Assembly (NCBI GenBank): GCA_029210545.1
Contig: JARGFV010000028.1
Location: forward strand, 1-26,829
Direction: 5' to 3'
Source of the DNA: a bacterium
GTDB taxonomy: Bacteria > BMS3Abin14
Length of the DNA: 26,829 bases
Part shown: positions 108-5,956 of the stretch, piece after piece
Numbering within the stretch: position 1 is the first letter of the stretch
How the letters are laid out: every line of letters begins with the position of its first letter
Translations under genes and position numbers: made by a program
The notes under the pieces: generated by a model
What the model saw: the letters and a program-made list of their open reading frames with translations, nothing else
Database searches by the model: none
What the model was told of the DNA's origin: nothing

Positions 108-338
108 ATGAAACATCGCAAGCCTGGAAGTCTCTTATTGTTGGCCAACTGCTCTCATTGCACCAAAAGTTTCGAGGATGGTGCGGCTCGGTACCTGCTC
201 GGCGCGTTTCCGGCTGAACAGTTCTGTGACTATGAGTGCGCCAATTTTTACCTCAAAGGCGCTGCTACAGGCAAACAACGATTCAACCCCCTCCCCGTCT
301 CTGCGAATGCGAGGGATACCTTTTTAGGCCTGGGATAG
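108..338 (+). CDS. Small zinc-finger-like protein (hypothetical)
   Basis: A 76-residue protein. AAGGAG at 96-101 sits six bases before the ATG, so the start is well supported. Two cysteine pairs are visible, C15-x2-C18 and C40-x3-C44, the second inside FCDYECANFY. This spacing resembles treble-clef/TRASH or MYM-type zinc-binding modules, in which an FCS-x2-C-x3-F pattern closes the site. The N-terminus is basic, with a short hydrophobic run (SLLLLANC) too short for a secure membrane segment. It is monocistronic: a strong terminator follows at 411-447. The zinc site is inferred from cysteine spacing only; the cellular role is unknown. Confidence 0.65.
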   Translation: MKHRKPGSLLLLANCSHCTKSFEDGAARYLLGAFPAEQFCDYECANFYLKGAATGKQRFNPLPVSANARDTFLGLG

Positions 339-615: not shown

Positions 616-1137
616 GTGGATAAAAAACTCGCCGGATACTATCTTCTCTCCGCCATCTTCCTTTTGGGGATCGGTCTGGCGATAGTGGCAGGAAGGGCCT
701 ACTTCGGGTCAAATGAGTCCGCTGTAAACACGACTCTATCCCAGCCTGGCGAGTCCGGCACGGGCCCGATGCTCGGACCAAAGGAGCTGCCGAGCTTCAT
801 CACCGGGAAAATGGAACCTGGAGATATCCGGTTCGAGCTGAGACCTGAAGGCTCCGATGAAAAAAAGTTCGTTCTTCGCTATTTTGCCAACAGCCACGAC
901 ATTGTTCTCGACGATTTCAACCTCATGGAAACAGTTACTCTTGAGACAGGGCTGGGTACTTTCAGGCCAGCCTCTGCCACACCGATGAGAGGACATCATT
1001 CCAGCGGACTGATCACGTTTGACATCGAACCACCCGAAAGCAATTTTACAGTCAAGGTGACAGGGTTGCCCAGGAAGCTGGACCGATCCTATAAATGGCC
1101 TGGTGATGTCAGCGTTTCAGGGAATGGCAACCGATGA
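616..1137 (+). CDS. Membrane-anchored periplasmic protein, first gene of the two-component operon
   Basis: A 173-residue protein starting at GTG; GGAGG at 604-608 lies seven bases upstream. A single hydrophobic segment at about residues 7-26 (YYLLSAIFLLGIGLAIVAG) acts as signal anchor. The rest is polar and probably periplasmic, with a beta-rich look (ITGKMEPGDIRFELRP, FTVKVTGLPRKL) that could be an immunoglobulin-like or cupredoxin-like fold, though no copper-site motif is visible. Its TGA overlaps the ATG of the histidine kinase by one base pair step (ATGA), so the two are translationally coupled. I do not recognise the family. Position suggests an accessory sensor or ligand-binding partner of the kinase; this is inference. 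Confidence 0.8.
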   Translation: MDKKLAGYYLLSAIFLLGIGLAIVAGRAYFGSNESAVNTTLSQPGESGTGPMLGPKELPSFITGKMEPGDIRFELRPEGSDEKKFVLRYFANSHDIVLDDFNLMETVTLETGLGTFRPASATPMRGHHSSGLITFDIEPPESNFTVKVTGLPRKLDRSYKWPGDVSVSGNGNR

Positions 1138-2864
1138 GCACTCAAGAAGTTGTATTGTATGGCCTGAAATTTCCGATAGTGAGCGGCAGGAAGAACCTGC
1201 TCATGGGAGCGGCCCTTCTCATACCCATTGTCATCGTTTTCCTGATCACCTATCGCAGCGCACGCGTCGAAAGCGATCTCATCGATGAAAGCCTCCACCA
1301 TCAGGCGGAAGTGATCGCCCATGGCCTGGCGGCCAGTCTGAACGTGGGCATAATGCACGCAACGTGGAGTGCGGAGGCTGTTCAGGATCTCCTCAACGCC
1401 AACGCCACGGAATCCGGCGCTCTTCTCATTTACATCACCTCTCCCGAGGGTCTTTTTGCGGCAAGTGAGAGCCGATTGTCCCCCGAAGACCTTCCGGGAG
1501 ATCTTTTTTCGCCCTCCTTTAACGCGCAGATCCCCGGGGACGGCCTCTTCATAAGGGAACCCGGTCTTTTCGTTTATCAAAGACCGGTCAGGGATCTGCC
1601 CGAACCCGGTGAAGGACGACCCTTTGGCAGGCACATGATGGGGAGGTACGGGGCCCGGAGCATATTCCCCACGGGAACCCGCATAACAGTGGTCCTGGAC
1701 GCCGCAGCATCGTACTATCTGAAGGGGCACCACCTGCGCATGAACCTGGCCATGGGCCTCCTCCTGATGGTGACGATCGCGGGGATCGGAGGATGGGGGT
1801 TCTGGAGCCAGAAGGCCCGTGAAGCCGCAACGGCCCTTGCCCGCACAGAGTCCTACGCTCGCGAGATCGTCACCCGTATGCCGGCCGGATTGATCCTGTG
1901 CAATCCGGAGGGAAGGATCGCGGTCACCAACGCCTCGGCATCGGCCATTCTCGGCATGCCGGAGGATCGGCTCAGGGGAATGTCGGCTCAGGATATTTTC
2001 CCGGAACAGCTCCTGCTGTGTGATTCACTCAGGAACGGGATCGATCATCCCGTCACTGAAGGAGACATGGAAGTGGACGGCCGCAGGCTGAAGATAAACC
2101 TTTCGGCCACGCCGCTCCCCGGTGAAGGCAGCGAACCCGGGGGGTTTCTCATCCTTTTCCAGGACATAACAGAACTGGAAACACTGAGGGACCAGCTCGC
2201 TCAATCCGAGAGGCTGGCAGAGTTAGGCAGGCTGTCGTCTACTGTAGCCCACGAGATCCGTAACCCGCTGAGCAGCATCCGCGGGCTTGCGCAGCTCCTG
2301 GCAGGGAAGGTGCCCGGGGAGCAGGGCGCCATGATGGAGGCCATCATCCGGGAGGTGGACCGCCTCAACAGCGTCGTGAGCGGTCTCCTTTCCTATGCCC
2401 GCCAGGAGAACCCCGAGCTGCTTGATTGGAAGGTCCTGGATATCCTGGAGCATGTCAAGGTCCTGGCGGCAGGTGATGCCAGGCTCAAGGAAATAAAACT
2501 GGGAGTGGACAACACTTCAAAAGAGATCTCCTGGCCTATGGACCGGGACATGGTCATCCAGGCCCTCCTCAACCTGGTAATTAACGCCATTGAGGCTTCC
2601 CGGCCCGGACAGACCGTTCAGCTATCCGCCAAGGTCGAGGGAGAGGCGCTTCGGCTGGCTGTCGACGACCAGGGCGAGGGGATTCCCGAGGACAGCGAGA
2701 AGCTGTTTGCCCTCTTCGAAACCTCGAAGGAGAGCGGGACCGGACTTGGACTGCCCATGGTGAGAAAGGTCGCCCGGCTCCATGGCGGGAGGGCTACCCT
2801 CCGTCCGAACCAGGGGGGCGGTACCAGGGCCGCCATCGAGATCCCGAGAAGGGGGGGGGCTTGA
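1134..2864 (+). CDS. PAS-domain sensor histidine kinase (NtrB/ZraS/AtoS type)
   Basis: 576 residues. Two membrane segments (about 22-40 and 203-224) bracket a ~160-residue periplasmic sensor region. A PAS domain follows (about 240-345), then a HisKA dimerisation domain with the H-box VAHEIRNPLSS (phospho-acceptor His373). The HATPase_c domain has N-box NLVINAIEAS (N480, N484), G1 DDQGEGIP and G2 SGTGLGLPMV. It autophosphorylates at His373 and should pass phosphate to Asp60 of the regulator encoded next. The start overlaps the upstream gene (ATGA) and the stop overlaps the regulator start (TTGA). The sensor region matches no ligand-binding motif I can name. A metal or envelope-stress signal is inferred from the ZraS-like layout and the downstream target gene. 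Confidence 0.95.
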   Translation: MSTQEVVLYGLKFPIVSGRKNLLMGAALLIPIVIVFLITYRSARVESDLIDESLHHQAEVIAHGLAASLNVGIMHATWSAEAVQDLLNANATESGALLIYITSPEGLFAASESRLSPEDLPGDLFSPSFNAQIPGDGLFIREPGLFVYQRPVRDLPEPGEGRPFGRHMMGRYGARSIFPTGTRITVVLDAAASYYLKGHHLRMNLAMGLLLMVTIAGIGGWGFWSQKAREAATALARTESYAREIVTRMPAGLILCNPEGRIAVTNASASAILGMPEDRLRGMSAQDIFPEQLLLCDSLRNGIDHPVTEGDMEVDGRRLKINLSATPLPGEGSEPGGFLILFQDITELETLRDQLAQSERLAELGRLSSTVAHEIRNPLSSIRGLAQLLAGKVPGEQGAMMEAIIREVDRLNSVVSGLLSYARQENPELLDWKVLDILEHVKVLAAGDARLKEIKLGVDNTSKEISWPMDRDMVIQALLNLVINAIEASRPGQTVQLSAKVEGEALRLAVDDQGEGIPEDSEKLFALFETSKESGTGLGLPMVRKVARLHGGRATLRPNQGGGTRAAIEIPRRGGA

Positions 2865-4231
2865 AAAATACGGACAATATGGCCCTGAAGAACATCCTCA
2901 TTATCGACGACGACAACGCTCACCGCCTGATGCTCAGGGAGTCCCTAAGGGAACGGGGCTTCAAACCGCTGGAGGCAGCTTCAGGCGAGGAGGGGCTCAA
3001 GACCCTCGAGACGGAGATCGTGGACCTCGTCCTGCTGGACATCAAGATGCACGGCATGGGGGGGATGGAGGCACTGAAACAGATCAGGGGTTTCAACCCG
3101 GCTCTGCCCGTCATCATGATGACCGCTTACGCCACCGTGGAAACCGCCATTGAAGCTCTCAAGGTCGGCGCCGTTGATTACCTCCTCAAACCACTGGATA
3201 TGGAAGAGCTCGAGGAAGCCGTTCGGGCGGCCATTGAGCCTGCTGTGAGCAGGACCGCCGGCAGAACGCCGTCGATGCCTGAGTTGAAGGGCCTGGATCT
3301 TGTCGCCGAGAGCGCCGTGATGAACGACATTCTGGCCGAAGCCGTCAAGGTTGCCCCCACGGACGCGACGGTCCTTCTTACCGGCGAAAGCGGATCCGGT
3401 AAGGAAGTCCTTGCCGAAGCCATCCACAGAATGAGCCTGAGGGCCGGGAAAAGGATCATGACCCTTAACTGTGCCGCCATCCCTGACACCCTCATCGAGA
3501 GCGAACTCTTCGGGCATAAAAAGGGATCCTTCACCGGCGCCGACCGGGACAAGGAGGGACGGTTCCAGGCGGCGGGGGGAGGCACCCTTTTCCTGGACGA
3601 GATCGGGGAACTCCCTCTCCCGGCCCAGGCCAAGCTCCTCAGGGTCCTTCAGGACGGGAGAATCACGCCGGTGGGCGGGACCCAGGAGATCGACACCAAC
3701 GTGAGGATCATCGCCGCCACCAACAGGAACCTTGAGGAGGAGGTAAAGGAGGGCCGCTTCCGCGAGGACCTGTACTATCGTATCTCGGTTTTCCCCATCC
3801 GGATCCCGCCCCTCAGGGAAAGAAAGATCGACATCCCCCCCCTCGCCGAACTCTTTCTCAAGCGATTTTCCAGGCGTCACGGTAAGGATATCAAGGGGTT
3901 TACACCAAGGGCGCTAACAAGTCTCCTCTCCCACGACTGGCCGGGTAATGTGCGCGAGTTGATGAACGTCATTGAAAGGGCCATCATCCTGTCGCGCGGC
4001 GATTATCTTGAGGAGAGAGATCTCCCTGGCATCGGTTCACCGGAGGCAATGGGAAAGGAGGACCCCGCTTCAAGGATCCGGGCCGGCATCTCCCTTCGCG
4101 AGATGGAGAAGATCCTCATTGAAAGAACCCTGACCGACACCGACAGCAACCGGACCCATGCAGCGCGCATCCTCGGGATCACCCGCAAGACCCTTCTTGC
4201 CAAGGTCAGGGAGTACGGTATAGAGGGATAG
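2861..4231 (+). CDS. Sigma54-dependent NtrC-family response regulator (ZraR-like)
   Basis: 456 residues in three domains. The receiver (about 11-125) has acidic pocket D16-D18, phospho-acceptor D60 and K110. The AAA+ sigma54-activation domain (about 145-375) has Walker A GESGSGKE (175-182), the sigma54-contact loop GSFTGA (222-227, a common variant of GAFTGA) and Walker B GGTLFLDE (240-247). A Fis-type helix-turn-helix (about 428-452, RTHAARILGITRKTLLAKV) ends the protein. The start given is a TTG overlapping the kinase stop, with AGAAGG eight bases upstream. An ATG at 2879 (MALKNILIIDDD) is a credible alternative that fits the family N-terminus but has a poor ribosome site. A run of nine G (2851-2859) lies at the junction. 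Likely target: the -24/-12 promoter at 4514-4528. Confidence 0.95.
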   Translation: MKNTDNMALKNILIIDDDNAHRLMLRESLRERGFKPLEAASGEEGLKTLETEIVDLVLLDIKMHGMGGMEALKQIRGFNPALPVIMMTAYATVETAIEALKVGAVDYLLKPLDMEELEEAVRAAIEPAVSRTAGRTPSMPELKGLDLVAESAVMNDILAEAVKVAPTDATVLLTGESGSGKEVLAEAIHRMSLRAGKRIMTLNCAAIPDTLIESELFGHKKGSFTGADRDKEGRFQAAGGGTLFLDEIGELPLPAQAKLLRVLQDGRITPVGGTQEIDTNVRIIAATNRNLEEEVKEGRFREDLYYRISVFPIRIPPLRERKIDIPPLAELFLKRFSRRHGKDIKGFTPRALTSLLSHDWPGNVRELMNVIERAIILSRGDYLEERDLPGIGSPEAMGKEDPASRIRAGISLREMEKILIERTLTDTDSNRTHAARILGITRKTLLAKVREYGIEG

Positions 4232-4281: not shown

Positions 4282-4351
4282 GGGGAGTTCCGGGTTCCGG
4301 GTTTGAGGTTCCGTGTCACCGCGTCAAACGACCTGTCCTGACCTTAGCCCC

Positions 4352-4367
4352 GCTCCCACGCTCCCAC
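4352..4367. repeat. Tandem octamer GCTCCCAC x2
   Basis: Two exact GCTCCCAC units side by side. The same octamer family (GCTCCCCT) is found in five units at 9608-9647, so this is probably a short member of the same repeat class. Confidence 0.5.
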
Positions 4368-4398
4368 TGGATATTTTCGTAACACCCCCGCGCGCCGC

Positions 4399-4421
4399 CT
4401 GTGGGTAATTAGGTACCACAG
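4399..4421. promoter_or_regulatory. Candidate enhancer (upstream activating site) for the NtrC-type regulator
   Basis: CTGTGG (4399-4404) and CCACAG (4416-4421) form an inverted repeat with 11 bases between; inside the arms GTA and TAC continue the symmetry with one extra base. Its centre is about 104 bp upstream of the -24 element, the usual distance for a sigma54 activator. Assignment to the regulator at 2861-4231 is inference from position and symmetry. Confidence 0.5.
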
Positions 4422-4467
4422 CGCAAAGACCCTCCCCCACCCTGAAAACTATTTGCCAAATTTTTTG

Positions 4468-4491
4468 CTTATAAAACAATATCTTATAAAA
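4468..4491. promoter_or_regulatory. AT-rich direct repeat between enhancer and promoter
   Basis: CTTATAAAA occurs at 4468-4476 and 4483-4491, a 15-bp period, in an AT-rich tract unusual for this GC-rich window. It sits between the dyad at 4399-4421 and the -24/-12 promoter, where DNA bending (for example by IHF) helps sigma54 activators reach the polymerase. It does not match a precise IHF consensus that I can verify. Confidence 0.35.
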
Positions 4492-4511
4492 AACATCCTC
4501 CCTGCCCGGCA

Positions 4512-4528
4512 TTGGCACGGCGTATGCT
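4512..4528 (+). promoter_or_regulatory. Sigma54 (-24/-12) promoter
   Basis: TTGGCACGGCGTATGCT carries the invariant GG (4514-4515) and GC (4526-4527) exactly ten bases apart and an intact TGGCACG, matching the RpoN consensus TGGCACG-N4-TTGC(A/T) closely. Transcription would start near 4539, leaving a ~45-base leader before the ATG at 4585. It lies directly downstream of an NtrC-type regulator gene. Confidence 0.85.
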
Positions 4529-4584
4529 CTATCAGGTGGTGAAGCTCAAAACCAATAACGGTTGACTTGAACAAGGAGGATGTA

Positions 4585-4992
4585 ATGAAAAGGACAGCAT
4601 TGATCGCGGTACTGGCTCTTGCCATCGTCGGCTCCGGCTACGGTCTCGCCAGTGCCCACAACACCTACGGCTGGAACCACATGGGAGATGATTACGGCCG
4701 CATGGGTTACCGGGGCGGAATGATGGACTTCGACGCACCCGGTTACGGGGGTGGCCAGGGCTACTGTGGGAACGTCGACACAGAGGCAAGGAAGTTGGAT
4801 CTCACCGAAAAGGACGCCCAAGAGATCATCACCAACCGGATCACGCGCAGCAATCCGAACCTGAAGGTGGGGAAGGTCAAGGGGACCGAGGACGGATTCG
4901 AGGTCCAGGTCGTGACCAGGAAGGGCGAGGCTCTCGTGGACCGGCTGCTGGTTGAAAAGGATACCGGCAGGATCTACAGGGTTCTTGAATAA
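4585..4992 (+). CDS. Secreted His/Met/Gly-rich protein with PepSY-like C-terminus
   Basis: 135 residues from the ATG at 4585, chosen because AAGGAGG (4573-4579) sits five bases upstream; an in-frame TTG at 4567 lies before that site and is rejected. A cleavable signal peptide ends at about residue 24 (GLASA/HN). The next ~45 residues are rich in His, Met, Gly, Tyr and Asp (HNTYGWNHMGDDYGRMG, GGMMDFD) and carry one cysteine (GYCGN). The last ~50 residues (LKVGKVKGTEDGFEVQVV, VDRLLVEKDTGRIYRV) look like a PepSY-type beta unit. The composition suggests periplasmic metal binding, as in ZraP, but it is not homologous to ZraP by eye. It is probably activated by the upstream two-component system through sigma54. 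Confidence 0.85.
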   Translation: MKRTALIAVLALAIVGSGYGLASAHNTYGWNHMGDDYGRMGYRGGMMDFDAPGYGGGQGYCGNVDTEARKLDLTEKDAQEIITNRITRSNPNLKVGKVKGTEDGFEVQVVTRKGEALVDRLLVEKDTGRIYRVLE

Positions 4993-5005: not shown

Positions 5006-5041
5006 GGGGGGGGCGGTCATCCGCCCCCCCCCTTTTTTTTT
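5006..5041 (+). terminator. Rho-independent terminator
   Basis: An 11-bp G/C-only stem (5006-5016 with 5021-5031) with loop TCAT is followed by nine T. It ends the transcript of the secreted protein gene before the convergent cytochrome operon. Confidence 0.92.
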
Positions 5042-5144: not shown

Positions 5145-5681
5145 TCATTTCAGGGACTTCAGGTATCCCAGAAGATCGTCGAGATCATCCTTCCCCATTT
5201 TCCACTGGGGCATGGTGGGGTCGAGCCGTTTGCCGTCCGGCTCCACGCCATCCGTTATGGCCCGCCGGATATCCTCGTCGGTGTAGACAGGCCCGGCTTC
5301 ACCGTTTTCGCCGTCGTGACCGTGCTCTTCAGATGTCAGGGTCTGGTACCGGATGTCCGTGGGCACCTTCGTCCCCATCATGACGGGAAACCTGCCCTGC
5401 CCGCCGACCCCGTGGCAATTGACGCAGCTGCCGCCCATGGCCCTGAGCCAGTGCGGGCCGCCCCGCGTCCTGATACGGTTCCCCGCGCTGTCGATGCCGA
5501 GGTAGTAGATCCTCTCCCCGTTGGAAGAGTAGGATCCCTTGTCAAGAACCCCTCCGCCGCCCCATCCTGTAAACGGCGCCACGCGTGAACCGCCTGCAAG
5601 AAAGAGGGCCATCCCGGCGAAACCCGCAAGGATGAGCCCCACGCCCCACCAGAGGGTTTTTCCCGATCGCCGCCCATTCAT
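5145..5681 (-). CDS. Membrane-anchored mono-haem cytochrome c
   Basis: 178 residues. An N-terminal segment (about 10-31, LWWGVGLILAGFAGMALFLAGG) anchors the protein. The single haem site is CVNCH at 86-90, and M157 or M162 in PTMPQWKM is the likely distal ligand. The C-terminal TDEDIRRAITDGVEPDGK plus LDDLLGYLKSL is typical of class I diheme/monohaem c domains of the cytochrome c oxidase or alcohol dehydrogenase subunit type. It should be a periplasm-facing electron carrier. GGAG lies upstream of the ATG, and the start overlaps the stop of the SHOCT gene (ATGA). It is last in the minus-strand operon. The redox partner is not in the window. Confidence 0.9.
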   Translation of the reverse strand: MNGRRSGKTLWWGVGLILAGFAGMALFLAGGSRVAPFTGWGGGGVLDKGSYSSNGERIYYLGIDSAGNRIRTRGGPHWLRAMGGSCVNCHGVGGQGRFPVMMGTKVPTDIRYQTLTSEEHGHDGENGEAGPVYTDEDIRRAITDGVEPDGKRLDPTMPQWKMGKDDLDDLLGYLKSLK

Positions 5682-5956
5682 GGCCCGCTCTCCAGGACCT
5701 TCTTCCTCTCCTCGAACTCCTCCGTGCTCATCTCACCCATGGCGTACCTTTCCCGGAGGATCTCCAAAGGATCGCGCGGGGGAGCCAGCCCCTCTCCCTG
5801 ACCGCCGGGAAAGCGGTGTCCGGCGGCGAAATACCTGATAACGAATACCGCGCCGACGATGATCAGCAGCCAGAAAAGGATCATGACGATACCTCCGTAA
5901 CCTCCGTAACCTCCTCCACCCATCATTCCGTAGCCCTGGTTTCCCCAACCCATCAT
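5678..5956 (-). CDS. SHOCT-domain membrane protein
   Basis: 92 residues. AAAGGAG lies six bases before the ATG. The N-terminus is a Met/Gly/Tyr-rich stretch (GYGMMGGGGYGGYGG), followed by one membrane helix (about 23-43, IVMILFWLLIIVGAVFVI). The C-terminus DPLEILRERYAMGEMSTEEFEERKKVL is a clear SHOCT domain, a short helical module often found at the ends of membrane proteins and probably used for oligomerisation. It overlaps the cytochrome c gene by four bases and follows DUF302 after 17 bases. The Met/Gly-rich head recalls that of the secreted protein at 4585-4992. Confidence 0.9.
   Translation of the reverse strand: MMGWGNQGYGMMGGGGYGGYGGIVMILFWLLIIVGAVFVIRYFAAGHRFPGGQGEGLAPPRDPLEILRERYAMGEMSTEEFEERKKVLESGP

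Follow-up and report, generated by a model that had tools for sequence, protein, structure and literature searches.

The transcription unit and its genes

A gene for a small, predicted secreted protein lies directly downstream of a two-component system in this DNA, which raises the question of what switches the gene on, and in response to which signal. We analysed a stretch of 26,829 nucleotides (the window) and compared it with a family sample of 12 genomes and with more distant lineages. The genes considered are as follows.

108–338, plus strand: small Cys-rich protein (CxxC...FCxxxC, TRASH/YHS-like by eye), judged from sequence and peripheral
616–1137, plus strand: N-terminal membrane anchor and Ig-like domain with a conserved MxGHH, coupled to the kinase gene
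1134–2864, plus strand: membrane histidine kinase with periplasmic sensor, PAS, HisKA and HATPase regions, from domain search
2861–4231, plus strand: NtrC-type response regulator with receiver, sigma54 AAA+ domain bearing GSFTGA, and Fis-type HTH
4585–4992, plus strand: predicted 135-aa secreted protein (signal, head and C-terminal domain), hereafter the target
Minus strand: cytochrome c, SHOCT, DUF302 and Lgt genes, window neighbours not counted as circuit parts

The preliminary description of this DNA had named an NtrC-type regulator, and domain searches agree, finding the receiver, sigma54-AAA+ and Fis-type HTH domains with GSFTGA present. The periplasmic sensor region of the kinase contains a conserved GMM and Met-rich stretches. 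Upstream, the gene at 616–1137 overlaps the start of the kinase gene by 4 bp and is translationally coupled to it. Protein-family and solved-structure sequence searches with its Ig-like product gave nothing useful; among many generic Ig matches to its structure model was the copper protein CrdA (Z 7.8), and this match and the MxGHH motif offer weak evidence pointing to copper. Relatives of 616–1137 occur near the PepSY-like gene in G011, G001, G009 and G004, one of them with a Met/Gly-rich head. The product of 108–338 has no Pfam match, and a resembling Cys-rich protein is encoded directly 5′ of the PepSY-like gene in G001 (L021 6918–7133). On the other strand, the SHOCT-domain membrane protein at 5678–5956 has a Met/Gly-rich start, and a relative lies directly 3′ of the PepSY-like gene in G225 (L126 4869–5222).

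The target is a predicted periplasmic protein with a Met/His-rich head

The secreted, His/Met-rich character attributed to the target in the preliminary description was borne out by its sequence. Residues 1–24 form a Sec signal with cleavage at ASA|H, residues ~25–69 a disordered head rich in Met, His, Gly and Tyr, and residues 70–135 a small PepSY-like alpha-beta4 domain of one helix and four strands. In the structure model, residues 1–69 are disordered and residues 70–135 are confidently predicted (pLDDT ~85). The closest solved natural folds to this domain are YpeB (Z 6.7, 2.7 Å over 62 residues) and YpmB (Z 6.6), both below the secure value of Z 8, and the match is suggestive of a PepSY-like fold. 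The earlier label 'PepSY-like' has support from the fold, with YpeB and YpmB the top natural matches, but not from Pfam sequence models, as the PepSY family PF03413 matched none of 10 homologues even at E 10. The ZraP/Metal_resist family PF13801 likewise gave no match for the window protein at E 10, and matched one of the 10 homologues at E 8.6. Sequence searches of protein families and solved structures with the target yielded nothing useful.

Homologues, aligned with L132 left out, have in common the C-terminal motif NPNLKVGKV...EVxVVTKxG..V..L.V.K.TG. The Met/His-rich head is present in almost all of them, with Met exceeding His in most. Many are predicted to begin with histidine after cleavage (AxA|H, the site being judged by eye), as do histidine-brace copper proteins.

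A conserved sigma54 promoter with paired operators

Between the end of the regulator gene (4231) and the start of the target (4585), a 353-bp stretch holds the promoter and its candidate operators; a terminator follows the gene.

4366–4384, plus strand: distal operator ACTGGATATTTTCGTAACA, the second-best motif match in the window
4399–4421, plus strand: proximal operator, dyad CTGTGG-N11-CCACAG, with a conserved 19-bp core at 4400–4418, TGTGGGTAATTAGGTACCA
4474–4486, plus strand: IHF-like element AAACAATATCTTA of the AT-rich spacer, one mismatch away from WATCAANNNNTTR
4513–4528, plus strand: sigma54 −24/−12 promoter TGGCACGGCGTATGCT, from consensus scoring and conservation
5006–5031, plus strand: strong intrinsic terminator, a stem of 11 G-C pairs and then a T run

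The −24/−12 box reads TGGCACG-GCGT-ATGCT, with GG at 4514–4515 and GC at 4526–4527. A promoter with GG-N10-GC spacing had been reported here before; it is real, but the coordinates given for it (4512–4528) were one base off. It matches the consensus at 11 of 12 positions and is the sole site reaching at least 11/12 when both strands of the 26.8-kb window are scanned. The start codon lies 56 bp 3′ of the box, preceded by a good match to a ribosome-binding site, AAGGAGGA, at 4573–4580. Because the terminator at 5006–5031 closes the gene, the box would drive one gene only. The sigma factor itself is encoded in the genome (PF04552 match at G000:C2:3131, E 4e-60), and rpoN is present in 12 of 12 family genomes. 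Taken alone, the box pattern occurs ~15 times in the organism's own genome, which is not above a reversed control, so the case for the promoter rests on its position and on the operators.

The position is well kept. Across the 10 full-length target copies with a box in the family, the box lies 56–86 bp 5′ of the start codon and scores 9–11/12; in a shortened copy in the own genome the distance is 47 bp. A similar box precedes nearly all close homologues, including orthologues and paralogues of other genera. Two promoters deviate: in G009-C4 and G004-C59 the box is weaker and the operators are placed too near it.

The inverted repeat previously described at 4399–4421, CTGTGG-N11-CCACAG, is exact. 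About 1.4 exact dyads with 6-bp arms and loops of up to 20 bp are expected by chance in the 281 bp that separate the regulator gene from the box; the dyad alone is therefore within chance expectation, independent evidence is needed, and it is conservation that makes it significant. The 200 bp 5′ of each of 10 boxes at other loci, with the window left out, served to train a 19-bp operator motif, which scored 233 bits against 134–146 in shuffled sequence. When the window (~53,600 positions) was scanned with this motif, 4400–4418 ranked first and 4366–4384, a distal operator overlooked in the preliminary description, ranked second. The chance of both top matches falling inside these 281 bp is ~1e-4. 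We set aside the idea that the outer CTGTGG/CCACAG arms form the operator proper, as it is the inner 19 bp that make up the conserved core. By leave-one-out scoring, most promoters carry two operators, 31–34 bp apart (the second weak in some), which lie ~104–116 and ~135–148 bp 5′ of the −24/−12 box. Two copies of CGCTCCCA at 4351–4367 abut the distal operator.

The spacer between operators and promoter had been noted for an AT-rich direct repeat. The repeat, CTTATAAAA at 4468 and 4483, exists, but it is not conserved as a repeat and was dropped as a functional one. It overlaps the IHF-like element at 4474–4486, whose position is conserved: an IHF-like sequence is found at one offset and on one strand in 8 of 10 promoters. 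The formal probability of this positioning, 5e-13, is too optimistic since the sequences are related; its fixed place is nevertheless striking.

Searched genome-wide, an IUPAC operator pattern has three matches in the own genome, each followed ~90–110 bp downstream by an 11/12 sigma54 box. They belong to the window gene, to the target copy on contig C40 and, at C40:269, to an orphan promoter that no target gene follows. In the genomes that encode the regulator clade described below, 13 of 22 operator matches adjoin a box of at least 10/12, against none of 6 in genomes without it. The C40 copy (L130 5859–6071) retains an intact promoter and 5′ leader and is missing its signal peptide and head, leaving an in-frame 70-aa PepSY-like domain, through either natural deletion or assembly collapse. 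The orphan promoter (L130 269–395, minus strand) has a full operator and an 11/12 sigma54 box, adjoins a CsoR-CopA pair, and has a ribosome-binding-site-like AGGAGGG downstream with no target gene.

Co-occurrence of regulator and target

The regulator belongs to a clade with support of 100/100 that is found in 7 of the 12 family genomes. A sigma54-driven target copy is present in 6 of these 7 and in 0 of the 5 genomes without the clade (p=0.008); the exception, G005, is a genome with a completeness of 78%. Within the clade the recognition helix hardly varies; it differs in G042, whose promoter carries another dyad, TGTCGAAAGTTCGACA. In four of six family genomes the kinase–regulator pair is located away from the target and the operators are still present, so linkage of regulator and target is not required.

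The own genome has three target copies, and more are found in 7 other family genomes and in distant lineages; no homologue was found in the plasmid records searched. A check proposed in the preliminary description was whether homologues always follow a −24/−12 site beside an NtrC-type regulator. They do not always do so: the own-genome paralogue C38, G010 and the distant L124, L126 and L129 have no sigma54 site, and L004 is also listed with these. The order kinase, NtrC-type regulator, target recurs in G042 and G109, which come from other families, with target boxes of 10/12 and 9/12, respectively; the G109 kinase is also preceded by an 11/12 box, as in zraSR. The regulators of both are 44–48% identical to the window regulator and fall outside its clade, so the association of kinase, regulator and target may be ancient or may have originated on more than one occasion. 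NtrC-type regulators of a sister clade (L044, L046, L049, L050) have their own 10–11/12 sigma54 box, located 150–215 bp 3′ of the regulator gene; this box precedes, in G001, G003 and G007, a small conserved gene (MYYRMVIEGGHLGAGK...VRYFR), by eye unrelated to metals.

That the box and dyad arose by chance, the gene being constitutive or sigma70-driven, is a reading we consider very improbable. It could appeal to the expected frequency of the dyad, to the ~15 genomic box matches that do not exceed the reversed control, and to one weak sigma70-like match at 4453–4480, but it leaves unexplained why the box, operators and IHF-like site keep their positions across genera and are absent where the regulator is absent. 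The preliminary description had staked its reading on conservation of the −24/−12 site and dyad in related genomes, and both proved to be conserved. Judged by sequence comparison, the kinase–regulator pair almost certainly switches on 4585–4992 via the conserved sigma54 promoter.

Target copies adjoin copper genes

A CPC motif together with HMA domains of the GMHCASC or GMSCASC type is the usual mark of a Cu(I) transporter; SCO1 is itself a copper protein. Target copies on C40 of the own genome and in G001 adjoin a CsoR-type repressor and a YHS-HMA-CPC ATPase; the copy in G011 adjoins a CPC ATPase, that in G042 an HMA-bearing ATPase (MSCASC), and that in G109 HMA, cupredoxin and SCO1 proteins. 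The second ATPases of C40 and G011, and the ATPase of G270, have CPH, not CPC. The window copy has no copper ATPase beside it. On the strength of the copper ATPase, CsoR and SCO1 neighbours, our best guess, through guilt by association, is that copper or silver is the likeliest signal, and the same neighbours suggest that the target helps to handle toxic copper outside the cytoplasm. The Met-rich motifs of the target's head and of the kinase sensor count on the same side. The preliminary description had proposed a metal or envelope-stress circuit with the metal left open; its ZraSR-like sigma54 circuit with a PepSY-like effector other than ZraP stands, and the neighbours now point to copper or silver.

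Comparison with known systems

ZraSR-ZraP (HydHG) of Escherichia coli and Salmonella likewise combines a membrane kinase, an NtrC-type regulator, sigma54 and an adjoining gene for a small periplasmic metal-linked protein. The window regulator's best NCBIfam score is indeed to ZraR, at 464.8 bits, which is below the NF007689 cut-off of 760. The effector here differs in having no ZraP/Metal_resist match, and further target copies, located apart from this one in the genome, have these operators too. A divergent promoter serves zraSR for autoregulation, whereas we found no sigma54 promoter before the kinase operon in the family: no box of at least 9/12 lies within 300 bp 5′ of the kinase or operon start (only 107 bp precede 108–338). 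G109, from another family, has one. As the tests for ZraR, ZraP and autoregulation all failed, we did not file the system under Zra.

SilE, PcoE and CopI-type proteins are periplasmic His/Met-rich binders of copper or silver. Like the target they are secreted, have flexible stretches rich in Met and His, which in the target are predicted to bind metal, and are encoded near copper efflux genes (for CopI, PMC13308877). They differ from it in the fold of the C-terminal domain, and here an NtrC-type sigma54 activator is in control.

For UipA, we know of no sigma54 control. UipA resembles the target as a PepSY-type protein with a metal-binding role, and is set apart by its other metal, both as described in a paper that cites the work (PMC12714742). 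A parallel in gene content is DbfQRS of Vibrio cholerae, together with PA2658-BqsRS, in which a small secreted PepSY-type protein (DbfQ also has 135 aa) accompanies a kinase and regulator; DbfQ binds the DbfS sensor, and PepSY-two-component neighbourhoods are enriched more than 60-fold (PMC12714742). By comparison, the system described here has an NtrC-type regulator with sigma54, a Met/His-rich disordered head and no Pfam PepSY match, and its target can lie far from the kinase. The earlier statement that no named system has this effector was therefore overstated, given the PepSY two-component systems (DbfQRS, and PA2658 beside BqsRS) and the metal-binding PepSY protein UipA (PMC12714742); in the literature searched, with most subscription journals outside its scope, we found no sigma54-driven PepSY two-component module.

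A proposed circuit and its alternatives

In the circuit that we propose, the membrane kinase would sense a periplasmic metal, with Cu(I) and Ag(I) as the likeliest candidates, or else the harm that the metal does, and would phosphorylate the NtrC-type regulator. The regulator would bind the two tandem operators, ~105–115 and ~140–150 bp 5′ of the −24/−12 promoter, and a bend at the IHF-like site would bring it to the sigma54 polymerase, yielding a single-gene transcript. The flexible Met/His-rich head of the exported product would bind metal in the periplasm, and the PepSY-like domain would either hand the metal on or dock on the kinase, damping the signal. We regard this full reading, from a Cu/Ag-sensing kinase through an NtrC-type regulator and sigma54 promoter to a metal-binding secreted protein, as probable. 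Sequence comparison shows that the promoter, the operators and their spacing are conserved, that regulator and target co-occur, and that the protein has an export signal, a probable fold class and copper genes near its relatives; phosphorylation, binding, looping, which metal is sensed and what the protein does are inferred.

An envelope-stress circuit like ZraPSR or DbfQRS, in which the kinase senses damage, the protein is a chaperone or a kinase-damping partner and metal binding is incidental, seems to us unlikely. It has precedents, as ZraSR is regarded by some as an envelope-stress system (PMC7657598), while the 135-aa PepSY protein DbfQ binds the sensor of its kinase in a pathway that responds to outer-membrane stress (PMC12714742), and in three lineages the target directly follows the kinase–regulator pair. 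It fits poorly, however, with the recurrent copper ATPase, CsoR, HMA and SCO1 neighbours, with a Met/His-rich head in almost all homologues, and with the placement of the target away from the kinase in four family genomes. Less likely still would be the same circuit tuned to another metal: Zn, to which ZraSR responds, or Ni, Fe(II) or U. Precedents cited in PMC12714742 are BqsS, which responds to iron, and UipA, which binds U and Fe, but the ATPases adjoining target copies have CPC and GMHCASC or GMSCASC HMA domains, SCO1 is also among the neighbours, and Met exceeds His in the head of most homologues.

Returning to the copper or silver circuit, a broader and more tentative idea, which we hold as possible though doubtful, is that the secreted Met/His-rich PepSY-like proteins, many with a predicted N-terminal His after cleavage, form a hitherto unnamed family of dedicated sigma54-controlled periplasmic copper buffers that feed back on their own kinase and were joined to NtrC-type two-component systems on more than one occasion in distant phyla. 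The circuit unites two known themes, NtrC/sigma54 control and kinase-paired PepSY proteins. Sigma54 circuits for metal or envelope stress are known mainly from enterobacterial ZraPSR; the system described here would add, in lineages that have been little studied, a second effector type with a defined operator and a predicted regulon of few members, along with a clear copper hypothesis.
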